DNA from: Geothrix sp.
GTDB lineage: Bacteria; Acidobacteriota; Holophagae; Holophagales; Holophagaceae
NCBI RefSeq assembly: GCF_030219325.1
Contig: NZ_CP126625.1
Span: 1,972,857 to 2,036,856 of the forward strand
DNA length: 64,000 nt
Reading direction: 5' to 3'
Of this stretch, positions 17,639 to 18,265 are shown one piece after another; position 1 is the first letter of the stretch; the number at the start of each line of letters is the position of its first letter. The notes below the pieces were generated by a model that did not search any database, was not told where the DNA came from, and saw nothing but the letters and a program-made list of their open reading frames with translations. The position numbers and the translations under genes are program-made.

Positions 17639-17702
17639 TCGCCCTGTCGAGCCCCCGCTGGGGTGGATTCTCGAATCCGCGGGCCAGGAATCGACACGAT
17701 CG

Positions 17703-17765
17703 GCCGCTCCCTGCCGGGCGATCTCCTCAACCACGAATCCGCTGCGCGGCCTCGTGGGCTGCGGC
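17703..17765. repeat. 63-bp direct repeat, copy 1
   Basis: Identical over 63 bp to 18022-18084 (begins GCCGCTCCCTGCCGGGCG, ends GTGGGCTGCGGC). It lies beside structured hairpins in each case. Confidence 0.88.
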
Positions 17766-17766
17766 C

Positions 17767-17823
17767 CTCCATGGATCGGCTCGCGGAGCGAGCCTCCCAC
17801 TCGCTCCGCTCGTGGACATGGAG
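17767..17823. repeat. Branched hairpin element A
   Basis: Outer stem CTCCATG/CATGGAG encloses two arms: GGCTCGC-GGA-GCGAGCC (perfect 7 bp) and CCAC...GTGG. Same three-way layout as the two elements at 17829 and 18089 but different sequence. Confidence 0.6.
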
Positions 17824-17828
17824 CCTCC

Positions 17829-17888
17829 CTTTTGCTGGCCAACGCTGCCCCGCAGCGTCGGCCACGCGCTACGCGCTCCATGCAAAAG
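17829..17888. repeat. Three-way-junction element B, copy 1
   Basis: Outer stem CTTTTGC/GCAAAAG; arm 1 GGCCAACGCTGC-CCC-GCAGCGTCGGCC; arm 2 CGCG-CTA-CGCG. Followed by GGGCCGGGCTGACCA (17891-17905), a copy of the ffs 3' tail region. Confidence 0.75.
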
Positions 17889-17919
17889 AAGGGCCGGGCT
17901 GACCATGTGCGCGACCAAA

Positions 17920-17967
17920 GTGGGTCGCGGAGCAGAGCCCGGGGGGCTCTGCGGAGCGGGGACCCAC
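17920..17967. repeat. Nested hairpin element
   Basis: Outer stem GTGGGTC/GACCCAC around a perfect 9-bp inner hairpin GCAGAGCCC-GGG-GGGCTCTGC. Confidence 0.7.
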
Positions 17968-18021
17968 TGGGAGCGCAGGCCAGTGCCGATTCGCCCAGCC
18001 AAGCCGAAGGCGCCGCGATCA

Positions 18022-18084
18022 GCCGCTCCCTGCCGGGCGATCTCCTCAACCACGAATCCGCTGCGCGGCCTCGTGGGCTGCGGC
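18022..18084. repeat. 63-bp direct repeat, copy 2
   Basis: Second exact copy of the repeat at 17703-17765, here only 4 bp from a three-way-junction element. Confidence 0.88.
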
Positions 18085-18088
18085 GATT

Positions 18089-18152
18089 CCTTTTACTGTC
18101 GAACGCGGCATTTAGCCGCGTCCGACTCGCGCTTCGCGCTTGACGTAAAAGG
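18089..18152. repeat. Three-way-junction element B, copy 2
   Basis: Outer stem CCTTTTAC/GTAAAAGG; arm 1 GTCGAACGCGGC-ATTTA-GCCGCGTCCGAC; arm 2 CGCG-CTT-CGCG. Paired positions differ from copy 1 in compensated ways. It lies directly downstream of the SRP RNA on the minus strand. Confidence 0.75.
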
Positions 18153-18154
18153 AG

Positions 18155-18265
18155 GGGCCGGGCTGACCACGGCACTCGGGGGAACGACTTAGGGCTGCTT
18201 CTTCCGACCTGACCCGGTTCATCGCACCCCGATGCATGGGGCCCGGCTTGAAATCAGCCTAGCCG
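18155..18265 (-). ncRNA. ffs: Signal recognition particle RNA (4.5S, small type)
   Basis: The minus strand reads GGGTCAGGTCGGAAGAAGCAGCCC (split here: GGGTCAGGTCGG at the 5' side of the apical domain, AAGAAGCAGCCC at the other), the conserved Ffh-binding loops of bacterial SRP RNA, followed by the usual GAGTGCCGTGGTCAGCC tail. The 3' GTCAGCC pairs with GGCTGAT near 18253-18259 to close the stem. About 110 nt. Ends are estimated from this pairing. No clear promoter was found upstream. Confidence 0.88.

Follow-up and report, generated by a model that had tools for sequence, protein, structure and literature searches.

We read the structured repeats downstream of the SRP RNA gene ffs, with a probability that we put at roughly 0.6, as the result of one insertion, at ffs, of a hairpin cassette that replaces the end of the gene at which it integrates. 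Judged from sequence comparison, the ffs-side repeats would be one case of a family-wide pattern, namely, the occurrence of a hairpin of about 72 bases and a second gene end after many genes. The anatomy of the tract, the covariation within the hairpin, the exact junction between the hairpin and the second gene end, the native character of the downstream end (T2) at protein genes and the likeness of the cassettes across species support this reading.

The source genome consists of a single contig of 3.73 Mb, in which ffs is present once. The gene lies on the minus strand of the window (i.e. the whole stretch of 64,000 nucleotides that was analysed), and the tract at lower coordinates is therefore downstream of it. 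Starting from ffs, the parts are:

18153..18248, minus strand: ffs, the bacterial small SRP RNA gene (RF00169, 65.9 bits against a gathering score of 40)
18155..18169, minus strand: T1, the upstream copy of the ffs 3' tail, i.e. the present gene end (match to GGGCCGGGCTGACCA)
18089..18152, minus strand: B1, a three-way junction, the allele common to genomes G043, G031 and G027 (folding, alignment)
18011..18084, minus strand: D1, a repeat 96% identical to D1' (sequence comparison)
17981..18010, minus strand: the leader 5' of PAL, starting with CGAATCGGCACTG and conserved at ffs of relatives
17909..17980, minus strand: PAL, a 72-bp end-to-end hairpin and dispersed mobile element (L001:1860-1931 in the alignment; covariation)
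17891..17905, minus strand: T2, another ffs 3' tail, interpreted as the native end that was displaced (match to GGGCCGGGCTGACCA)
17829..17888, minus strand: B2, a three-way junction, read as the native allele (folding, alignment; its end is shared with genome G025)
17766..17828, minus strand: REP2, a piece of a second dispersed palindrome family, absent at the corresponding place in G025
17692..17765, minus strand: D1', a repeat, followed by native flank shared with G025
17469-17008: a PF06983 gene, beyond D1' in the ffs direction
beyond the PF06983 gene: a convergent DUF2400 gene

The ffs 3' tail GGGCCGGGCTGACCA is present twice (17891-17905 and 18155-18169), as is a repeat of 74 bp (17692-17765 and 18011-18084), the copies of which are 96% identical and share an identical core of 63 bp. 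This confirms the original prediction of a structured repeat tract downstream of the SRP RNA with two junctions of about 60 nt, two ffs tails and two copies of a 63-bp repeat, in which each junction is paired with the tail GGGCCGGGCTGACCA and with the identical repeat. The stretch CCGCGCAGCGGATTC of D1 (window 17703-17765) recurs in relatives (L013, L016) at the 3' end of the convergent DUF2400 gene, and D1 may therefore be a remodelled copy of the end of that gene.

The region between the B copies, of which the original prediction had mentioned only 'two more perfect hairpins', holds the hairpin that is the dispersed part of the tract: it has matches at numerous further sites of this genome and of the genus, and these are copies of PAL. 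The element is 71-72 bp long (consensus TGATTCGCTCCCTGTGGGGCCCCGCTCCGCAGGCTCCCCCGGAGCCTGCTCCGCGACCCACATGGTCGCGA), is positioned just 3' of genes, and occurs in 49 of the 77 Holophagaceae genomes (a sample that, among the available genomes, is also that of the whole order) and in 7 of the 11 genera. In an alignment of 65 diverse copies the consensus fold spans the element from end to end. Double-sided changes were found in 20 of its 22 pairs, and the share of cells that can pair is 95.9%, compared with 81% after shuffling; not one of 500 shuffles comes up to any of the measures, which are somewhat favourable to the fold as it was predicted from the alignment on which it was tested. The covariation signal is lost when the partner is slid by 1-3 columns, and the terminal stem covaries too (columns 7/75: GC 43, CG 16, AU 2). 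Because the consensus fold pairs the ends of the element and covaries, an alternative 3' hairpin (TCGCGACC/GGTCGCGA), preferred when the copy at L171 is folded alone, was set aside. Some draft contigs (L255, L256, L278) end inside or beside PAL repeats, so that PAL copies are probably under-counted in draft genomes. Carriage by phages or plasmids was rejected, as exact matches to two PAL patterns were absent from viral contigs and PAL-like sequence was absent from phage and plasmid records.

At three PAL copies of this genome that were read, the end of the neighbouring gene, stop codon included, is repeated across PAL. Within the genus (a sample of 47 genomes, the source genome included), a repeat of upstream sequence with a score of at least 18 begins at the PAL 3' end in 58 of the 102 unique full-length PALs in the loci and at 0 of 96 random positions, counts that are not independent since the loci are related and orthologous loci recur; about 40% of the PALs are without a clear second gene end at this threshold. 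The repeat starts at offset 0 in 25 of these 58 cases and within 4 nt of the PAL 3' end in 57, where -4 is the floor because the query began 4 nt inside PAL. In a cruder test, roughly half of 49 loci had a second end, compared with 3 of 196 controls. The repeats measure 14-283 bp, and in 50 of 67 units their starting point falls within a sense reading frame that terminates ahead of PAL, by an ORF rule that is not strict for GC-rich DNA. Targets identified by Pfam encode chaperonin GroEL, SprT-like, glutaredoxin, DJ-1/PfpI, HPPD-like, homogentisate dioxygenase-like, asparaginase, tyrosine recombinase and FtsX proteins; ffs and, by eye, the 5' end of a MerR-like gene are further ones. PAL with a repeated gene end is also present in other genera, at ffs among other sites (L336, L341), and arrays of the type T-PAL-T-PAL-T occur at ffs, at the SprT-like gene and at other genes. 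In two species (L171, L175) a small hairpin is inserted into the downstream copy of the groEL end, at an identical position.

In principle, a junction that is exact at the PAL 3' end could also be produced if PAL were a non-autonomous transposon with long and variable target-site duplications (14-283 bp), of which only the gene-restoring insertions survive. In line with this, the repeat starts at different points within one glutaredoxin gene end, depending on the species, and in some units (L163, L186, L278, L255) the copies are identical throughout, non-coding DNA included, up to PAL on both sides. Nevertheless, we know of no such long variable target duplications for small bacterial elements, and the two gene ends are not alike in the way that this explanation requires. 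The downstream copy retains the coding sequence and the stop codon, past which the DNA is mostly unrelated (the identity of T1 and T2 is 92% in the coding part and 54% in the 20 nt past the stop), and the differences between T1 and T2 favour third positions (37/32/88 for codon positions 1/2/3; chi-square p about 1e-8, shared ancestry uncorrected), whereas a target duplication would predict a decay of the downstream copy regardless of codons. The third-position bias and the retained stop are reasons to read the downstream copy as the native end. Together with the pairs of occupied and empty loci described below, they make the transposon explanation unlikely.

The SprT-like gene offers such a pair. 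The occupied genome G029 and the empty genome G031 are identical for more than 90 nt, in a stretch that runs from the downstream copy into the gene that follows, and the upstream copy of G029 is of a type found in other species; the pair G002/G003 gives the same picture, with a few differences. At protein genes the downstream copy is thus native and the upstream copy imported, although not every unit shows such displacement. The commonest class of SprT-like cassette, i.e. gene end plus non-coding spacer (L222, L230, L237, L238, L239, L240, L247), is 85-97% identical across species, where the gene bodies are 83-93% identical, and between L230 and L240 the identity amounts to 97% for the cassette, 86% for the gene and 59% for the native end. 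Over all occupied SprT-like loci the cassettes are not more alike than the genes (means of 80% and 85%, respectively), because there are at least two cassette classes. The native T2 and the likeness of cassettes across species suggest that gene end, spacer and PAL behave as a travelling unit that pushes the native end aside and seems to pass from one species to another. The SprT-like gene is a target of larger islands as well (L356, L357, L358; genomes G009, G046, G006): at 5-27 kb upstream of the complete gene there is a copy that breaks off at about codon 102, and what follows the break is common to several genomes. As PAL is absent from the island breakpoints, these islands were rejected as its parent elements.

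The same observations bear on the possibility that slippage of replication or a template switch at the hairpin produced a tandem duplication of gene end and hairpin on the spot, after which the distal PAL and gene end decayed. The tandem arrays are what such a process would leave, and some T2 copies are indeed followed by the first 3-25 nt of PAL. It would, however, not take PAL to new genes or genera, the T2 copies agree with the end that is native in an empty relative and not with a T1 in decay, and the cassettes are alike across species, so that we regard duplication in place as a quite improbable origin of the pattern as a whole. Given the PAL pieces after T2 and the fully identical copies, tandem duplication or a true target duplication may also occur in individual units.

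For the replacement of gene ends by an incoming cassette, the following course can be envisaged. A unit of gene end and PAL, perhaps as a small circle or as transformed DNA, would enter a recipient and recombine, homologously or site-specifically, at the corresponding gene end; the gene would be rebuilt with the incoming end and the native end would come to lie beyond PAL. With a circle closed at the PAL 3' end, or with transformed DNA, the outcome in an empty genome would be T1-PAL-T2; repeated entry, i.e. into a genome that is already occupied, would build up the T-PAL-T-PAL-T arrays. With respect to a possible mover, reverse transcriptase was rejected, as none was found in this genome and it is present in 15 of the 47 genus genomes; a larger relative of PAL or an integrase-coding parent was not seen in the loci examined around the matches.

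At ffs itself, most relatives have the tail, then its inverted copy, the leader, PAL and a second tail, sometimes twice. Tail and inverted copy make up a long hairpin in these relatives (L016, L018, L313, L314 and other ffs loci). Throughout the genus, variation in the tail (GGTCAG, GGTAAG, GGCAAG) is matched by variation in the inverted copy, and the hairpin after ffs therefore seems to be kept, possibly as a terminator or as an RNA 3'-end structure. In our genome the tails are followed by B1 and B2, both of which fold as three-way junctions, be it as DNA of either strand or as RNA of the minus strand (z = -4.1 to -5.8 relative to dinucleotide shuffles). The shared architecture that had been claimed for them is borne out, as are the paired changes by which they differ in the outer stem and in the 12-bp arm, although covariation between only two copies is weak evidence. 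According to alignments counted by eye, B1 is identical to the copy in G043 at 63 of 64 positions and to that in G031 at about 94%, whereas B1 and B2, within one genome, are only about 70% identical. Among the matches listed for this genome and the 47 genus genomes, B with its repeat is found in about six genomes and at ffs only, which led us to reject B as a dispersed family. The covariation of B1 and B2 is most likely that of two orthologous alleles of a structure downstream of ffs that were brought together.

As B1 resembles the copies of other species, and the end of B2 (GGCCAGCAAAAG), D1' and the next flank match G025, where a different cassette lies in front, T1-B1-D1-leader-PAL is probably the incoming part and T2-B2-D1' the displaced local allele, to which REP2 would have been added later. 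The weak point of this history is that D1 and D1' are 96% identical and B1 and B2 about 70%, which would need local gene conversion or another history. Alternatively, B could be a selected RNA structure, e.g. an ffs terminator or 3' processing signal, that was duplicated with the ffs tail, the mobile element being incidental. The strength of the fold, its retention in G043 and G031, and the apparent maintenance of a hairpin after ffs, with tail and inverted copy covarying in most relatives, would agree with selection; yet B is limited to about six genomes, has shrunken to a single arm in G018, is not followed by a U-run and leaves the second tail unexplained. We consider it very unlikely that this accounts for the tract, and selection on B would in any case be compatible with the insertion of a cassette.

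Several known systems resemble the PAL cassette in part. MITEs are derived from a parent transposon with the same ends and make a short target duplication of fixed length; PAL is likewise small, non-coding and dispersed, with ends complementary over 4-5 bp, but its repeats of 14-283 bp differ from such a duplication. The attC sites of integrons are imperfect hairpins after a stop codon, as PAL is, and have GTTRRRY/RYYYAAC core sites. These cores are absent at the ends of the PAL consensus and, unlike in the attC case, the gene with PAL keeps its chromosomal place. The closest likeness in behaviour is to CIMEs, which, like other gene-end integrative elements, stack in tandem by accretion at a gene end (PMC5704250). 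PAL shares with them the location at a gene end, the gene end on both sides (58/102 versus 0/96), the tandem accretion seen in the arrays, the lack of integration genes and, at least in part of the units, the displacement of the native end by the incoming one (codon bias and retained stop in T2; G029/G031, G002/G003). The PAL cassettes differ in that they are non-coding, measure about 100-350 bp and have a conserved folded body common to many target genes; the comparison concerns behaviour, and membership of the CIMEs is not claimed.

REP/BIME sequences are dispersed intergenic palindromes that often lie shortly after stop codons (PMC3733652, PMC12306157), which holds for PAL as well, but PAL is 72 bp long, paired end to end and joined to a gene-end copy at its 3' end. 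Mobilisation of a REP family by a RAYT (Y1) transposase, which short intergenic palindromes 3' of genes might bring to mind, is hardly credible, as the PAL consensus (starting with TGATTCGC and ending with GGTCGCGA) lacks the terminal GTAG or CGTC tag that defines these families (PMC3733652) and the transposase (PF01797) is absent from this genome and present in only 5 of the 47 genus genomes. The original prediction of a mobile, REP-like palindromic family that spread by using the ffs end holds insofar as there is a mobile palindrome and the ffs end is duplicated; the mobile part, however, is PAL instead of B, it is not a REP, and ffs is one of more than 10 gene ends.

Tentatively, the PAL cassettes might represent a so far undescribed, minimal class of mobile DNA, in which non-coding cassettes of about 100-350 bp bring along a copy of a resident gene's end, insert there across strains and species, rebuild the gene with the incoming end, form arrays and reach new gene ends by means of the 72-bp folded element. 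If true, a hairpin without genes can do what integrative elements do in replacing gene ends, at many targets and in several genera, and the terminal codons and 3' regions of core genes (groEL, the SRP RNA gene, glutaredoxin) are being shuffled. The cassettes would also account for puzzling gene-end duplications in such genomes, and the PAL sites provide exact junctions and empty sites with which a mover can be sought. In the searchable literature, on repeats and palindromes of Geothrix or the Holophagaceae and on gene-end elements in general, we found no description of such cassettes.

A second palindrome family, unrelated to PAL, is represented in the tract by REP2 (window 17766-17828). Its members are 140-200 bp long and end with GGGCCGAGTCA. 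They were found at L004 (minus strand, junction at 1576), L194, L196, L198 and L199, with lepA in this genome among the sites. A second gene end adjoins the palindrome in 5 of 8 cases (0 of 7 in the control), and the same junction in an unrelated family hints at a general process.
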